Below are positions 57,267 to 63,803 of a DNA stretch of 64,000 nucleotides, one piece after another. The DNA lies in the NCBI RefSeq assembly GCF_022049065.2, contig NZ_CP095743.1:1751001-1815000 (forward strand), given 5' to 3'. The notes beneath the pieces were generated by a model, which saw nothing but the letters and a program-made list of their open reading frames with translations, was not told the origin of the DNA and searched no databases. The position numbers and the translations under genes were made by a program. The DNA is from Niallia sp. Man26. Its GTDB lineage: Bacteria; Bacillota; Bacilli; Bacillales; Cytobacillaceae. The first letter of the stretch is position 1, and each line of letters begins with the position of its first letter.

Positions 57267-57665
57267 ATGATTCACAAAAGATTGGAAACAAAAGAGCACA
57301 CGATGTTGTATGAAATAACAAATGATATTCAACAAGCAGTCACTGAATATGGAATGAAGGAAGGAATAGTCATTGTGTACTGTCCGCATACGACTGCTGG
57401 AATTACCATAAATGAAAATGCAGATCCAGATGTAGTACGTGATATGATTCGTCGTTTTGACGAAGTATATCCTTGGACTGTCAACGAAGACAGGCATATG
57501 GAAGGGAATACAGCAGCACATATGAAAGCAAGTACTGTCGGAGCATCTGAGCTTGTTATAGTAGAAAGTGGGCGTTTATGCTTAGGAACATGGCAGGGGA
57601 TTTATTTTTGTGAATTTGACGGACCAAGACACAGAAGCTATTCACTTAAATTTATGCCGAGCTAA
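57267..57665 (+). CDS. YjbQ-family protein (secondary thiamine-phosphate synthase-like)
   Basis: This UPF0047 protein (132 residues) has the conserved VYCPHTTAGITINENADPDV, HMEGNTAAHMKAS and GTWQGIYFCEFDGPR. A weak thiamine phosphate synthase activity is known for E. coli YjbQ; the real role is unsettled. GGAGAGGAG precedes the ATG. It is followed by a gamma-glutamylcyclotransferase-like gene 24 bases on, probably in one operon. Confidence 0.9.
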   Translation: MIHKRLETKEHTMLYEITNDIQQAVTEYGMKEGIVIVYCPHTTAGITINENADPDVVRDMIRRFDEVYPWTVNEDRHMEGNTAAHMKASTVGASELVIVESGRLCLGTWQGIYFCEFDGPRHRSYSLKFMPS

Positions 57666-57689
57666 AAGCTTTAAGGAGAAGAGATAAAA

Positions 57690-58082
57690 ATGAAGATTTA
57701 TCTATTTGTTTACGGCACTTTAAGGAAGCAGCAAATCAATCACAATATGATGAGAAATTATCCTTGTATTGCTGAAAATATGTGGATTTATGGCAAGCTG
57801 TATGATGCAGGGGTAGGCTATCCTTTTTTAAGTTTAGATAAAGGTAACGAAAGGGTGCGTGGTGAAGTATTTGAAGTCCCAGCTGCAGATTTGCATCTAT
57901 TAGACGAGTTTGAAGATTATACACCAGGAGACCAAAACAGCCTCTATATAAGAGTTGAGGTAGAGGTTTATGGACAAGAAAAACCTTTAATGGCTTTTAC
58001 ATATGCTTGCAATAAAGAGGAAATGCTTTTGGAGGAAATTGAAGGCCATGATTGGACTGCTTTTTCAAGATTCAGCCAATAA
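57690..58082 (+). CDS. Gamma-glutamylcyclotransferase-like (YtfP) protein
   Basis: The 130-residue product has the cyclotransferase fold with VYGTLRKQQ at 8-16, the glycine-rich substrate loop, GYPFLSLDKG, RGEVFEVP and the acidic LLDEFEDYTPG, which carries the catalytic Glu. It may release 5-oxoproline from gamma-glutamyl compounds. AAGGAGA precedes the ATG. Confidence 0.87.
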   Translation: MKIYLFVYGTLRKQQINHNMMRNYPCIAENMWIYGKLYDAGVGYPFLSLDKGNERVRGEVFEVPAADLHLLDEFEDYTPGDQNSLYIRVEVEVYGQEKPLMAFTYACNKEEMLLEEIEGHDWTAFSRFSQ

Positions 58083-58163
58083 AAAATAGGCTTAATCATG
58101 TTTAACGGACAATTTGCCAGTGGTATATATATTCTATACGACATCATAGAAAGAAGGTCATAT

Positions 58164-58367
58164 ATGATGAATATACAGGCAAATAACATATTATATTCGA
58201 TTAAACAGGAAAATCAGACATATGAAGCAATGGAATTTAAAAGGATGGACTGGATAAATAAACAATGCTATATCACTTTTCAACAAGCTTCGACAGGAAA
58301 ATGGTATACGTTCAACCGAAGCAGCATTAATTTTCTTTTCGATAATGAAAAGAATTTAGTGTCTTAA
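58164..58367 (+). CDS. Small hypothetical protein
   Basis: A 67-residue frame with tandem ATGs (58164, 58167) after AGAAGG. The product has alternating strands with aromatic residues (CYITFQQAS, KWYTFNRSSINFLF). I do not recognise it. It follows the cyclotransferase-like gene by about 80 bases. Confidence 0.55.
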   Translation: MMNIQANNILYSIKQENQTYEAMEFKRMDWINKQCYITFQQASTGKWYTFNRSSINFLFDNEKNLVS

Positions 58368-58442
58368 GCTAAGGATTTGTTGCGTTGAAGGGCTTACTGG
58401 CTATATACTAAAGTAGTATATAAGTGAAAGGGGCTTTATCAA

Positions 58443-58646
58443 TTGATACATGAAATTTGGAATGACAAAAACACTGTCAAAAAAGTAAAGTGCATACATA
58501 CAGATGCAAGCAAGTATATTGTTAATAGAGTATTGACTGTCGGTCAAACATATGAAGTTAAAAATGAAACAGAAGAGTTTTACTTCATTGTTGATAACTC
58601 AGGAAAAGTCGGCGGTTTTTATAAGGATTATTTTCAAGATTTATAA
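58443..58646 (+). CDS. DUF6501-family small protein
   Basis: The 67-residue product (MIHEIWNDKNTVKKVKC, then VLTVGQTYEVKNETEEFYFIVDNSGKVGGFYKDYF) matches the Bacillaceae DUF6501 family from memory. It is a small beta-barrel-like protein of unknown role. The TTG start is about nine bases from AAAGGGG. A terminator follows. Confidence 0.78.
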   Translation: MIHEIWNDKNTVKKVKCIHTDASKYIVNRVLTVGQTYEVKNETEEFYFIVDNSGKVGGFYKDYFQDL

Positions 58647-58657
58647 AAGCGGGAACG

Positions 58658-58687
58658 GGAGAAAGCAGCTGATGTTTTCTCCTTTTT
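58658..58687 (+). terminator. Terminator before the crcB pair
   Basis: A 7-bp stem (58658-58664 with 58676-58682) is followed by five T. Confidence 0.75.
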
Positions 58688-58710
58688 GAATGGAAAGAAG
58701 GGATTACTTC

Positions 58711-59091
58711 ATGATTTATTTGTATGTAGGAATAGGCGGCATAATTGGCAGTGTCGCCAGATTTTTATGCAGCATAGGGCAGGGAAGCTTTCCGTTACAT
58801 ACATTATGTATTAATATAGCAGGCTCTTTTCTTCTCGGTGCTTTAACAAAATATGCTGCTGGCCGAGTCAGCTTTCCGCCAGAACTTGCAACAGCGGTCG
58901 GCACAGGCATTCTCGGTTCATTCACGACCCTTTCGACCTTCAGTCTCGACACACTGAACCTTTTGCAATCAGGTAAAATACTGCAGGCATTTATGTATAT
59001 GGCAGCAAGTGCATCTCTCGGCCTAGCAGCTGCCTATATCGGAATGAAGACAGGATCAAAGCTTGCAGAAAGAGGGCAGAACGATGGTTAA
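58711..59091 (+). CDS. crcB: Fluoride channel subunit CrcB/FluC (first copy)
   Basis: This four-helix membrane protein (126 residues) exports fluoride. Conserved parts are GGIIGSVARFLC, the pore Asn in NIAGSFLLGAL and the Phe box GTGILGSFTTLSTFS. The ATG at 58711 follows GAAGGG; an ATG at 58690 lacks a site. It overlaps the second copy by eight bases, as in pairs that form heterodimeric channels. No fluoride riboswitch is seen upstream. Confidence 0.93.
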   Translation: MIYLYVGIGGIIGSVARFLCSIGQGSFPLHTLCINIAGSFLLGALTKYAAGRVSFPPELATAVGTGILGSFTTLSTFSLDTLNLLQSGKILQAFMYMAASASLGLAAAYIGMKTGSKLAERGQNDG

Positions 59092-59446
59092 CATGATTGG
59101 TGCAGTCGCCATCGGCGGATTTATCGGCGCAATCAGCCGATTTTGGTTAATACAATACATAAAGTCAAAAATCACTACTGTTTTGCCAGTTGCCACTCTG
59201 ATAGTTAATTTAGTTGGTTCTTTTTTATTAGGATTACTTTCAGGACTGCATGTGAGTGAAATGGTACATTTGTTGTTTGCAGTCGGGTTTTTAGGGGCAT
59301 TTACGACCTTTTCTACATTGGCTGTTGAGGCAGTTCAGTTGTGGAAGGAAAACAACAAAATAACCTTTTATAGGTATATAGTGCTCTCGTTTGGCGGAGG
59401 ACTTGCTTTTGTGTGGTTTGGTTATTTAACTGCGAATATTGGGTAA
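59084..59446 (+). CDS. crcB: Fluoride channel subunit CrcB/FluC (second copy)
   Basis: The protein (120 residues) has four helices with GGFIGAISRFW, the pore Asn in NLVGSFLLGLL and VGFLGAFTTFSTLAVE. The sequence differs markedly from its partner, as expected for heterodimer halves of opposite topology. The ATG at 59084 has GAAAGAGGG upstream, inside the first copy. A bidirectional terminator follows. Confidence 0.93.
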   Translation: MVNMIGAVAIGGFIGAISRFWLIQYIKSKITTVLPVATLIVNLVGSFLLGLLSGLHVSEMVHLLFAVGFLGAFTTFSTLAVEAVQLWKENNKITFYRYIVLSFGGGLAFVWFGYLTANIG

Positions 59447-59450
59447 ATAA

Positions 59451-59485
59451 AAAAGCAGACGGACTAAGGTCCGTTCTGCTTTTTT
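59451..59485. terminator. Bidirectional terminator between crcB and yidC2
   Basis: A long stem with one bulge (59451-59464 with 59469-59483) has A- and T-runs on its two sides. Confidence 0.88.
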
Positions 59486-59487
59486 CC

Positions 59488-60285
59488 TTATTGTTTAACT
59501 TCTTTCGTGCTTTCAGCCACTTTGGCAGGCGGATACAGCTTTCTTCCAAGCATAGACTGGAAGATAAGGAAGATTCCGCCGACTGTCCAATATAACGGCA
59601 GGGCAGCTGGAGCATTAAGAGAAACCATAACAATCATGATTGGGGAAATTAATCCCATAAATTTCATTTGTTTTTGTTGTTCAGCAGTCATCGTGTTTTG
59701 AGTAACACGGAATTGTAAATAATAAACAATACCAGCGATAGCTGTTAAAATAAGGTCTGAATGGCCAAGATTAAACCATAGGAATGAATGGCTGGCAATT
59801 TCCTGTGAGCCTCTTATCGCGTAATAGAAGCCCATGAGAATCGGCATCTGAATAAGCATAGGCAGACAGCCCATTGATAATGGATTGACACCGTGTGTCT
59901 TATAAAGATCCATCATTTCCCGTTGTAGGTTTTGCTGTTCTTTCTGGTCTTTCGTCGCTTTTATTTTCTTTTGGATTCTGTCCATTTCCGGCTTGATAAT
60001 TTCCATCTTTTCTTTCATCTGCTGCTGCTTTTTGTATTGTCTTAACATAAGCGGCATCAATAGAAGGCGAATAATAAGGGTAATCAAGATGATGGCAAGA
60101 CCGAAGTTGCCGTTAAACATCATTGCCATTCCATGTATTAAAGAAGCGAAAGGCTCTACGACCGTGTTATGGAACCAGCCACCGCTGTTCCCGCTTCCGT
60201 TTCCTGCTGTTGAACATGCGCTAAGCATAACGGCAGTTAATATTGTCATAAATACTAATAAAAGTTTTTTTGCTGATTTTGTCAT
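59488..60285 (-). CDS. yidC2: Membrane protein insertase YidC2 (SpoIIIJ/YqjG family)
   Basis: This insertase (265 residues) is made as a lipoprotein, with the lipobox LSAC giving Cys24. Five membrane helices follow, with the hydrophilic-groove Arg in LIIRLLLMPL and the cytosolic coiled-coil hairpin (QMKEKMEIIKPEMDRIQ). It inserts membrane proteins alone or with SecYEG. AGGAGGAG precedes the ATG, but that site can pair with the end of the upstream gene (60320-60610), so its translation is probably controlled by the MifM-like nascent chain. Confidence 0.94.
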   Translation of the reverse strand: MTKSAKKLLLVFMTILTAVMLSACSTAGNGSGNSGGWFHNTVVEPFASLIHGMAMMFNGNFGLAIILITLIIRLLLMPLMLRQYKKQQQMKEKMEIIKPEMDRIQKKIKATKDQKEQQNLQREMMDLYKTHGVNPLSMGCLPMLIQMPILMGFYYAIRGSQEIASHSFLWFNLGHSDLILTAIAGIVYYLQFRVTQNTMTAEQQKQMKFMGLISPIMIVMVSLNAPAALPLYWTVGGIFLIFQSMLGRKLYPPAKVAESTKEVKQ

Positions 60286-60290
60286 TTCGA

Positions 60291-60334
60291 CTCCTCCTAG
60301 TTCGTTGAAAAAATTTTGTTTAATTCAGGAGGAG
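60291..60334 (-). promoter_or_regulatory. Hairpin that can hide the yidC2 ribosome binding site
   Basis: On the minus strand CTCCTCCT (60327-60334), inside codons 93-95 of the upstream gene, is complementary to the AGGAGGAG (60291-60298) of yidC2, with a 28-base loop. A ribosome stalled just upstream would keep it open. Confidence 0.75.
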
Positions 60335-60610
60335 AAGCGGTTTTTCCGGATCATCAGCGGAACTTTCCATTCTTTTGCGGATATTCTTGCATATCCATTG
60401 CAAAATAGGAGTATTGTATTTTTGAACATTAAAATTTACCGTCGTGACGACTCTTTGCAAGTAAAGGCCGTCTGATGCGATAAAATCATCATTAACAGTG
60501 ATTTGCAGGTTGATATCCCAAAAATATTTAACCATTAATCCAATCATTACGGTAATGTAGATGGTTTGATAGCTTGGAATGTTTGTCAAATCTATTAAGA
60601 ATTCGAACAT
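60320..60610 (-). CDS. mifM: MifM-like regulatory nascent chain
   Basis: The product has 96 residues, about the length of B. subtilis MifM (95). It has one membrane helix (about 13-32) and a C-terminal segment with I69, W72, I73, M81 and D86-D87-P-E89. This parallels the MifM arrest residues I70, W73, I74, M80 and the acidic 86-89 cluster. Its last codons (Leu92-Leu95) contain the sequence complementary to the yidC2 ribosome binding site. It lies just upstream of yidC2. MifM stalls its ribosome when membrane insertion is poor, so exposing the yidC2 start. GAGGTG precedes the ATG. Confidence 0.8.
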   Translation of the reverse strand: MFEFLIDLTNIPSYQTIYITVMIGLMVKYFWDINLQITVNDDFIASDGLYLQRVVTTVNFNVQKYNTPILQWICKNIRKRMESSADDPEKPLLLLN

Positions 60611-60933
60611 TTATACACCTCAGGTTCGTTATCAACAAATAAATTATATCGAAAATAAGCCTAAATGGCAATCGTGTTCTATTACCAGTCATACTTTGTA
60701 CATAATTTACTCAAATGATTGAAACGGTGATTGACAGGGGGAAATACCTAATTTTTATTAAAAATTTGTCTCAATCTAAAAACTTTCCTTAATAATTGTC
60801 ATAATTAGGTGTATGATAGAGTTAAAAATACATCACTTACAAAATGGAACAAGTTTAGTTTATGGTAAAATGAAACGAAGTTCGGTATAATGTGTTCACA
60901 TATTTTGGCGTAACCTTAGGAGGCTGCTCATAA
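60611..60933. other. 323-base divergent promoter region
   Basis: It lies between mifM (minus) and pncA (plus) and is A/T-rich. It contains a probable pncA promoter (60863-60891). No coding frame or clear NiaR operator is seen. Confidence 0.5.
60863..60891 (+). promoter_or_regulatory. Predicted promoter of pncA-pncB-nadE
   Basis: TGGTAA (60863-60868), a 17-base spacer and a perfect TATAAT (60886-60891) lie about 40 bases before the GTG start. Confidence 0.6.
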
Positions 60934-61473
60934 GTGAAAGCACTAATAAATATAGATTATACTTTCGATTTTATTGAGGGAGCTCTGCCTTGCGGAGAAT
61001 CTGGAATGAAAATAGAAAGCACTATTTCTGCTATTACCAAACAATTTATTGAAGAAGGTCATTTTACTGTTTTTGCTATTGATTTACATACGGAAAAGGA
61101 TCAATATCATCCTGAGACAAAGCTGTTTCCGCCTCATAACATTAAAGGAACAAAAGGCAGAAACCTTTATGGTTCATTAAAGGAAGTGTATGAGAAAAAC
61201 AAGGAACTGGAGCATGTATACTGGATGGACAAAACTAGATATAGTGCCTTTGCCGGTACTGATCTTGAATTAAAGCTGAATGAAAGAAACATAAAGGACG
61301 TGCATTTAGTAGGTGTCTGTACAGATATTTGTGTACTTCATACAGCTGTAGATTGTTACAATAAAGGATTCAACCTTTTCATTCATGAGAATGCGACCGC
61401 ATCCTTTAATGAACCAGGTCATATTTGGGCCATTGATCATTTTAAAAGCACATTAGGTGCAGTCATTTTGTAA
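60934..61473 (+). CDS. pncA: Nicotinamidase (isochorismatase family)
   Basis: The enzyme deamidates nicotinamide to nicotinate. The catalytic triad is Asp8 (INIDYTFDF), Lys100 (MDKTRYSAF) and Cys133 (CTDICVLHTA); metal ligands include the Asp/His in FAIDLHTEKD. The length of 179 residues matches B. subtilis YueJ. The GTG start follows TAGGAGG. It is the first of three NAD salvage genes. Confidence 0.92.
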   Translation: MKALINIDYTFDFIEGALPCGESGMKIESTISAITKQFIEEGHFTVFAIDLHTEKDQYHPETKLFPPHNIKGTKGRNLYGSLKEVYEKNKELEHVYWMDKTRYSAFAGTDLELKLNERNIKDVHLVGVCTDICVLHTAVDCYNKGFNLFIHENATASFNEPGHIWAIDHFKSTLGAVIL

Positions 61474-61504
61474 GGCGAATTGGTTAAACCGCAGGAGGAA
61501 AAGC

Positions 61505-62965
61505 ATGAGTTTTAATTTTCGTGATGACAGCTTAATGCTGCATACAGATTTATATCAAATTAATATGGCAGAAACATACTGGGAGGATGGCGTTTCGGAA
61601 AGAAATGCTGTATTTGAGGTGTACTTTCGCAAGCTTCCTTTCAATAATGGATACGCTGTTTTTGCAGGATTAGAAAGAATAATTCAGTACATAAAAGAAT
61701 TGCATTTCACAAGCAGTGATATTGAATATTTGAGAGAGAGCGGCTTTAAAGAGGACTTTCTGGAGTATTTAAAGGATTTTCGTTTTACCGGGAACTTGCG
61801 TTCAGTAGAGGAAGGAGAAATCGTTTTTGCTAATGAACCATTGTTAAGAGTGGAGGCTCCGCTTGCTCAAGCCCAAATAATTGAGACGGCATTGCTAAAT
61901 ATTGTGAATTACCAAACATTGATTGCGACAAAAGCATCTCGCATCAAGCATGCTATCGGTGAGGGAGTCGTAATGGAATTCGGCAGCAGACGCGCCCATG
62001 AACTGGATGCGGCACTTTGGGGTACAAGAGCAGCGTTTATCGGCGGATTTAGCTCCACGTCCAATGTTAGAGCAGGCAAGCTGTTTGGCATCCCTGTATC
62101 TGGAACGCATGCTCATAGTATGATTCAGGCTTACAGAGATGAATATACGGCATTTCATAAGTATGCACGACGTCATAAAGACTGTGTCTTTTTGGTTGAT
62201 ACGTATGATACTTTGCGTTCAGGAGTTCCCAATGCCATTAAAGTGGCAAAGGAACTTGGTGATGCTATTAATTTTGTCGGCATCAGATTAGACAGCGGCG
62301 ACCTTGCTTATCTTTCCAAAGCTGCGCGAAAAATGCTTGATGAAGCAGGTTTTACAGATACGAAAATTGTAGCAAGCAATGATTTGGATGAATATACGAT
62401 TATCAACTTGAAGGCTCAAGGAGCTCAGATTGATGTATGGGGCATTGGCACGAAGCTGATTACTGCTTTTGACCAGCCTGCTTTAGGCGGAGTATACAAG
62501 CTTGTTTCAATTGAGGATGAAGAGGGTAATATGCAAGATACAATCAAAATCAGCGGAAACCCAGAAAAGGTGACAACACCTGGCATTAAAAGGGTATACC
62601 GCATCATCAACAGCATCAACCATAAATCCGAAGGTGACTATATTTGTTTGGAAACGGAGCATCCAGAAGAAGAGGAGCGCTTAAAGATGTTTCATCCAAC
62701 ACATACTTATATCAGTAAATTTGTTACTAATTTCCATGCGAAGGATATTCATAAGGATATTTTCCAAAATGGAGAGCTTATCTATAAGTCACCGACAATT
62801 TTTGAATCACAAAAATATGCGGAGGATAACTTGGATGTGCTGTGGGATGAATACAAGCGTTCACTCAATCCGGAGGAATATCCAGTTGATTTAAGCCCGC
62901 TTTGTTGGGAAAACAAGATGAATCATTTAGAAAAAGTAAAAAGCAACATTAAAAATAAGGAATAA
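61505..62965 (+). CDS. pncB: Nicotinate phosphoribosyltransferase
   Basis: The enzyme makes nicotinate mononucleotide from nicotinate and PRPP. The 486-residue protein has the family features [40 protein letters not shown] (the phosphorylated His region) and [14 protein letters not shown]. The ATG at 61505 follows AGGAGG; a frame extension into pncA is ignored. It lies 31 bases after pncA. Confidence 0.95.
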
Positions 62966-62981
62966 CAGGAGGAATGCTGAC

Positions 62982-63803
62982 ATGAGCATACAAAATCAAA
63001 TTATCGCTGAACTAAACGTGAAACCTGAAATTGATGCTAAAGAAGAAATAAGACTGCGCATTAACTTTCTGAAAGAATACTTGAAAAAGACAAAAGCAAA
63101 AGGATTTGTATTAGGAATAAGCGGGGGCCAGGATTCATCTCTTGCAGGCAGATTGGCTCAGCTTTCTGTGGAAGAGCTTCGCAGTGAAGGTTATGATGCT
63201 ACATTTGTTGCAGTAAGATTGCCATATGGTGTGCAAGCAGATGAAGACGACGCTAACAAAGCACTGAAGTTTATTGCAGCAGATAAAGAGCTTGAATTCA
63301 ATGTTCGTGGTCCTGTTGACGAATTTAAGAGAGTTTATGATGAAATGGCCGATACTCCACTAGCTGATTATCATAAAGGAAATATCAAGGCTAGAGCGAG
63401 AATGATTGCGCAGTATGCAATTGGCGGTCAGTTAAATTTACTAGTAATTGGTACAGATCATGCTGCAGAGGCAGTTACAGGCTTCTTCACAAAATATGGA
63501 GATGGCGGAGCAGATGTACTGCCGTTAACTGGTCTTACAAAGCGCCAAGGGAAACAGCTGTTAAAGGAACTTGGAGCAGAAGAAAGAATTTACTTAAAAG
63601 TACCGACTGCTGACTTGCTTGATGAGAAACCAGGTCAAGCAGATGAAACAGAGCTTGGAATTTCTTATGATCAGTTGGATGACTACTTAGAAGGTAAGGA
63701 AGTCCCACAAGAAGCAGCTGAAAAAATTGAAGCTCGTTACTTAATTACAGAACATAAACGACAAGTGCCTGCATCTATGTTTGATGATTGGTGGAAGAAA
63801 TAA
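62982..63803 (+). CDS. nadE: NH3-dependent NAD+ synthetase
   Basis: The enzyme converts nicotinate adenine dinucleotide to NAD with ammonia and ATP. The PP-loop is [13 protein letters not shown], and [20 protein letters not shown] and the C-terminal [15 protein letters not shown] are conserved. At 273 residues there is no glutaminase domain. AGGAGG precedes the ATG. It is the last gene of the operon, 16 bases after pncB. Confidence 0.97.

Follow-up and report, generated by a model that had tools for sequence, protein, structure and literature searches.

A predicted MifM-type stalling sensor with a divergent arrest segment upstream of yidC2 in Niallia sp. Man26

A small ORF in front of yidC2

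The window analyzed here, a stretch of 64,000 nucleotides from the genome of Niallia sp. Man26, carries a 96-codon ORF directly upstream of yidC2 and on the same strand, with 34 nt between the end of the ORF and the yidC2 ATG (Table 1). The original prediction had recognized this small gene; the interval it gave, 60291..60610, contained the whole ORF but ran 29 nt past it into the intergenic spacer. The yidC2 product is 43% identical to the genome's other YidC, whose gene (at 3884846 of G000:C1) lies 3' of rnpA in the SpoIIIJ arrangement. At 229 bits against a cut-off of 377 for the SpoIIIJ model, yidC2 is the non-SpoIIIJ copy, and it is this second YidC gene that the small ORF precedes, as in known mifM loci.

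The promoter-like site upstream of the ORF matches the consensus at 11 of 12 positions, in a region where a scan returned 9 such sites versus 5.4 by chance. Because this site lies just upstream and a terminator-like hairpin follows yidC2, the two genes probably form one transcript. The same hairpin separates yidC2 from a convergent crcB and is likely a shared bidirectional terminator; two neighboring CrcB/Fluc fluoride-exporter genes occupy 58690-59446. No match to Rfam, the fluoride riboswitch included, was obtained at the gathering threshold in 57500-62500, and we therefore take this region to hold no known riboswitch or leader. A divergent gene run at 60934-63803 starts with an isochorismatase-domain protein (nicotinamidase-like), and its next ORFs presumably resemble nicotinate phosphoribosyltransferase and NAD synthetase.

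Table 1. Features of the mifM-yidC2 locus, in window coordinates
Feature	Position	Strand	Basis
mifM-type ORF, 96 codons (hydrophobic N-terminus, linker, C-terminal arrest segment)	60320..60610	-	ORF and homology
yidC2, YidC/Oxa1-family insertase, 265 aa	59488..60285	-	PF02096, E 2.8e-45; TIGR03592 above cut-off
Promoter-like site for mifM-yidC2, sigma-A type, TTGCCA-17-TATAAT	60643..60671	-	Consensus match only
Hydrophobic (membrane) segment, about residues 17-33	60512..60562	-	Best 17-residue Kyte-Doolittle window
Arrest segment, residues 69-91 (I69..W72-I73..K75..I77-R78-K79-R80, M81 insert, D86-D87-P88-E89-K90-P91)	60338..60406	-	Profile alignment to B. subtilis-group MifM; family counts
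Anti-SD CTCCTCCT, inside mifM-type ORF codons 93-95	60327..60334	-	Complementarity to the Shine-Dalgarno sequence (SD)
yidC2 Shine-Dalgarno sequence AGGAGGAG, partner of the anti-SD	60293..60300	-	Pairing
Terminator-like hairpin 3' of yidC2 (with T-run on both strands, 59456-59475; plus strand for crcB)	59459..59474	both	Sequence scan

By hydropathy, the small protein has one main hydrophobic segment, of modest mean Kyte-Doolittle value (1.46), in agreement with the single membrane helix that had been predicted. Measured in the same way, the distance from the end of this segment (residue 33) to the third residue after the start of the acidic element (residue 89) is 56, with a median of 55 in homologues, which gives the window ORF the N-terminal membrane segment about 54 residues before the arrest site that is typical of MifM; the published median spacing between hydrophobic segment and arrest site is 54 (PMC10987492). 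An acidic cluster (D86, D87, and E89) falls inside residues 70-100. The small protein matched no curated family in Pfam or NCBIfam (E up to 1), and searches of PDB sequences with the single sequence and with a profile returned unrelated proteins at best (E 0.14 and 0.48). Its nearest named relatives are Niallia entries labeled 'hypothetical protein'.

The arrest segment and its variants

A search with the single sequence recovered homologues in 38 of 101 relatives, and a profile built from 22 relatives matched 159 of the 193 genomes of the window's family. Class-wide, the profile matched only 7 of 398 sampled genomes; the profile is therefore narrow, and this count is no measure of the family's true spread. 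A YidC-family gene was present at 144 of 144 loci, all taken around small-ORF matches except L002, which came from the YidC search. Of the 34 family genomes that the profile missed, 15 were inspected for YidC copies and upstream ORFs (uORFs): seven have a single YidC, and seven have a second YidC preceded by a short uORF whose product has a hydrophobic stretch and a C-terminus that turns from basic to acidic, so that within this 15-genome sample a second YidC was never seen without such a uORF. These very divergent uORFs, missed by the profile (L164-L168 and L169-L170; tails such as KIKIDPGDEDS and RRKESPDDSDE), are possible further variants of the arrest code or independent peptides. One genome (G029; L162, L163, and L171) carries two YidC1-like copies and a short third fragment covering 39 profile positions, with no MifM found there; perhaps it has lost the second system.

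Two of the class-wide matches cover profile positions 67-91 only. Used as a query, one of these retrieved proteins named MifM in B. pumilus and other Bacillus, as well as a B. subtilis 168 MifM stalling construct; annotations of the aligned Bacillus proteins include 'Membrane protein insertion and folding monitor' and 'Regulator of OxaAB translation'. Aligned profile to profile (hhalign), the window's family and the B. subtilis-group MifM proteins matched with an E of 5e-6 over 24 columns, at a score of 36.5 versus a maximum of 21.4 in 200 column shuffles (none as high); the arrest segment is thus homologous to that of named MifM proteins. The N-terminal halves of the two groups showed no detectable homology in profile-profile comparison (E 0.063), and shared descent therefore rests on the 24-residue arrest segment together with gene order.

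The published MifM arrest motif reads RIxxWIxxxxxMNxxxxDEED (PMC7897499), which places M80 at W+7 and N81 at W+8 relative to the tryptophan. Of this motif, the window protein retains both isoleucines, the tryptophan, two aspartates, and the last acidic residue, and it lacks R69, M80, N81, E88, and the four-acid run; K79 stands at W+7, R80 at W+8, and M81 at W+9. Most of the family's homologues diverge from the published motif as well, and we therefore take it to be that of a lineage and not a defining one.

For residue counts, identical C-termini were merged into 115 distinct rows, 4 of them from outside the window's family, anchored by a pattern that limits the letters at W+0, +1, +5, +6, and +8 and leaves +7 and +9 free. 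Six of the 144 loci (L027, L095, L132, L136, L139, and L143) failed this pattern; on visual inspection, at least L027 and L095 appear to be ordinary members. At W+7, basic residues occupy 101 of the 115 rows (R 57, K 44; otherwise N 4, I 4, M 3, A 2, and T 1). At W+8, where the pattern also allowed N but no row has it, they occupy 114 (K 103, R 11; I 1), and the 11 arginines are those of the 11 Niallia rows. The tryptophan itself is W in 68 rows and R in 43, and the following residue is I in 103; the Arg-for-Trp rows (L051, L054-L057, L059-L069, and similar) keep the rest of the segment. The acidic pair starts at W+13 in 89 rows, at W+14 in the 11 Niallia rows without exception and in 6 others, and elsewhere in 9. 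Runs of at least four acids occur in 6 of the 115 rows (two of them B. pumilus-type) versus 16 of 16 B. subtilis-group proteins, a set that uses 16 of 23 matches and samples one lineage because it was gathered from one B. pumilus-type query. Acid+2 is proline in 40 rows and acid+5 in 56, with 78 rows having proline at one or both of these positions, and DDPEKP forms the acidic element of 21 of 23 distinct Niallia-type segments. Across the family, the C-terminal segment is kept, and the linker and the last residues are variable. At the genus level, these alignments point to two changes: the acidic element is preceded by an additional residue, and it reads DDPEKP where B. subtilis MifM has DEED.

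The ribosomal constriction that such a segment would meet is nearly identical to that of a solved ribosome. The 21-residue uL22 hairpin of this genome is the same as in the closest solved chain (5njt_l), F85 and M90 included, and the uL4 loop is identical over 29 residues, with the arginine kept and two differences just outside. We take the solved chains to be those of B. subtilis and number uL22 F85/M90 and uL4 Arg66 accordingly. Both residues of a MifM-permissive ribosome, uL22 M90 and uL4 Arg66, are therefore present. M90 is the residue that made B. subtilis ribosomes responsive to MifM, and B. subtilis MifM N81 was modeled in contact with uL4 Arg66 (PMC4423224). A lysine or arginine at the N81 position, as found in this family, would be unable to form that contact, and the basic pair is therefore more likely to face rRNA.

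Predicted pairing between the ORF 3' end and the yidC2 ribosome-binding site

The complementarity between the last codons of the ORF and the yidC2 SD, which the original prediction had put at 8 bp, held up: CTCCTCCT is a perfect 8-nt complement of AGGAGGAG, a length reached by none of 200 dinucleotide shuffles, and the longest SD complement among the 26 other strong-SD ORFs of the window (at least 100 aa) is 6. The computed energy for opening the yidC2 SD is 8.94 kcal/mol, versus a median of 2.2 for those 26 ORFs (none as high) and 1.6 for yidC1. Measured against 60 shuffles of its own pyrimidine-rich upstream stretch, the window SD is not significantly more closed (7.6 versus a mean of 6.4 kcal/mol; 40% of the shuffles as high).

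The homologous loci give a wider view. Six of the 115 rows (L019, L025, L028, L058, L071, and L072) were set aside because a misplaced start left them without an SD, and 109 remained. Among these, the mean complement is 5.7 nt versus 4.3 when shuffled, with p <=0.05 in only 32, and the median SD opening energy is 9.6 versus 5.4 kcal/mol for shuffles; it lies above the shuffle mean in 95 loci (p <=0.05 in 53) and at or below it in 14. The exceptions include two Niallia loci (L008 and L009), whose perfect complements are 4 and 3 nt and whose opening energies fall below their shuffle means. With tied positions assigned to the upstream site, the distance from the first acidic codon to the start of the best complement is 17-25 nt in 97 of the 109 loci. 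The reading frames of the complement are distributed 63/24/22; since all three are used, one RNA element is spelled by different amino acids, and the last residues of the ORF appear to serve the RNA and not the peptide. Beyond the SD core, four positions downstream show Watson-Crick pairing above permutation in 104 loci (1, 0, 0, and 2 of 1000 permutations reach the observed value), to which we give little weight because relatedness was uncontrolled; in the same 104 loci, positions further out and the upstream SD flank show no excess.

A stalled ribosome was modeled by masking 16 nt, an assumed footprint that begins with the P-site codon. Stalling anywhere between codons 86 and 89 had been proposed to open the yidC2 start, and the computation retains codon 89 alone: the opening energy remains at 8.86, 8.24, and 7.57 kcal/mol with codons 86, 87, and 88 in the P-site, so that folding speaks against SD opening by a stall there, with the SD still closed. 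With codon 89 in the P-site, the SD sequestered by the ORF 3' end is predicted to be freed (7.62 to 0.75 kcal/mol), and because a shortened RNA lowers the opening energy somewhat in any case, the sharp step is the informative part of this change. In B. subtilis MifM, the stall sites mapped by toeprinting have P-site codons 89 to 92 (PMC4423224). Over the 109 loci, the medians at acid+0 to acid+4 (9.6, 8.2, 5.7, 3.2, and 2.5 kcal/mol) fall gradually.

Interpretation and comparison with known systems

Gene order, homology of the arrest segment, pairing of the yidC2 SD with its release at codon 89, and matching constriction loops are jointly best explained by the 96-codon ORF being a MifM-type stalling sensor for yidC2. 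We regard this reading, which was that of the original prediction, as very probable; the spacing of the membrane segment and SD sequestration across the family point the same way, and assignment to MifM is based on the arrest segment and the RNA arrangement together with gene order, ORF length, and the membrane segment. In the scheme we propose, the mRNA tail of the ORF would pair with the yidC2 ribosome-binding site and hide it. At low YidC capacity, the nascent chain would stall its own ribosome with about residue 89 to 91 in the P-site, and the stalled ribosome would cover the anti-SD and allow yidC2 to be translated. Insertion of the N-terminal hydrophobic segment by YidC would exert a pull that frees the stall, and yidC2 would be shut off. 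Arrest, release by insertion, and regulation of yidC2 are here attributed to the Niallia protein by analogy with B. subtilis.

An SD hairpin alone would suffice for plain translational coupling, in which the ORF is a leader without force sensing whose ordinary translation or termination opens the yidC2 SD, and a number of residues that B. subtilis MifM needs for arrest are absent here, which fits such a leader. Coupling without arrest is nevertheless improbable: it needs no set distance between anti-SD and acidic codons, such as is found in 97 of the 109 loci, and it does not call for a C-terminal segment retained throughout the family next to a variable linker and variable last residues. Still less probable is a membrane function of the small protein in its own right, for example as a YidC partner, with gene order reflecting an operon only. 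The membrane segment and the strict gene neighborhood would agree with it, yet the conserved part is the MifM-homologous C-terminal segment and not the membrane part, and the 3' end carries an anti-SD in differing frames and amino acids.

Within a stalling sensor, the question is which residues act. The original prediction had M81 replace Met80 two residues further from the tryptophan in an otherwise B. subtilis-like arrest. The window protein and 5 of 23 distinct Niallia-type segments do have methionine at W+9, but the other 18 segments have I (11), T (3), V (3), or L (1) there; methionine occupies the M81 position in 3 of the 115 family rows, the profile alignment treats M81 as an inserted residue, and K79 stands where B. 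subtilis has M80, a position that is R or K in most of the family. A shifted methionine is the least credible of the alternatives, and M81 is, on these counts, incidental. Of the proposed I-x-x-W-I...M...D-D-x-E pattern, I69-x-x-W72-I73 and D86-D87-P88-E89 thus stand and the methionine as arrest residue does not. The divergence of the segment is real in K79-R80, the extra residue, and DDPEKP, and not in a methionine spacing widened from seven to nine.

Together with the literature, the residue counts suggest that the family holds a different and more common version of the arrest code. An unbroken acid run has been linked to multi-site stalling (PMC13183943), and neither the A-site nor the P-site residue of MifM is proline (PMC7897499). 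We tentatively propose, as a possibility that we do not yet favor, that M80-N81 at the constriction and the unbroken DEED at the peptidyl transferase center are a late form of the B. subtilis lineage, that most of the family uses [W/R]-I-x-K-x-I-R-[R/K]-K and then a broken DDxE, with the basic pair at the constriction in the place of Met-Asn, and that the DDPEKP of Niallia would stall at one or two sites instead of four consecutive ones, with an incoming proline assisting (K90 in the P-site, P91 in the A-site). Variants found in nature tell the general residues of a well-studied arrest peptide from the lineage-specific ones. Should these homologues stall, MifM-type arrest would require neither Met80-Asn81 nor a four-acid run, the contact between Asn81 and uL4 Arg66 in the B. 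subtilis model would not hold generally, and an exchange of DDPEKP and DEED would directly test the link between an unbroken acid run and multi-site stalling. From sequence alone, the RNA side provides a second, independent way to predict the stall codon.

Several other systems share parts of this arrangement. CliM of Clostridia and ApcA of actinobacteria are likewise small membrane uORFs of yidC with a C-terminal arrest sequence, set apart by their description as lacking sequence similarity to MifM (PMC13183943, PMC7897499). With the proline-assisted SecM, ApdA, and ApdP, the window protein could have in common a contribution to stalling from P91, near the presumed A-site, although it differs in having no RAGP or RAPP motif. 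The MifM cluster of Fujiwara et al. (2024) comprises 572 sequences from 592 Firmicutes genomes, filtered for an acidic region in residues 70-100 and an N-terminal signal, and the window ORF would very likely pass these filters (PMC10987492). That text contains no mention of Niallia, and its sections on the MifM cluster give no list of variable motif residues; among the papers searched, none joined Niallia with an arrest peptide, and the supplements of PMC10987492 may list these sequences. The closest likeness is to B. subtilis MifM, which also lies upstream of yidC2, has about 95 codons, an N-terminal hydrophobic segment, and a C-terminal W-I with an acidic element, and shows pairing of the yidC2 SD with the ORF end and a stall window from about codon 89, as predicted here. 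The window protein differs from it in K79-R80 for M80-N81, in the proline-broken DDPEKP for the DEED run, in an acidic element one residue further from the tryptophan, and in an N-terminal half that is not recognizably related by profile comparison. We class the window ORF as an unexceptional member of an established type of regulator, and the pattern of its family makes the essentiality of the published residues testable.
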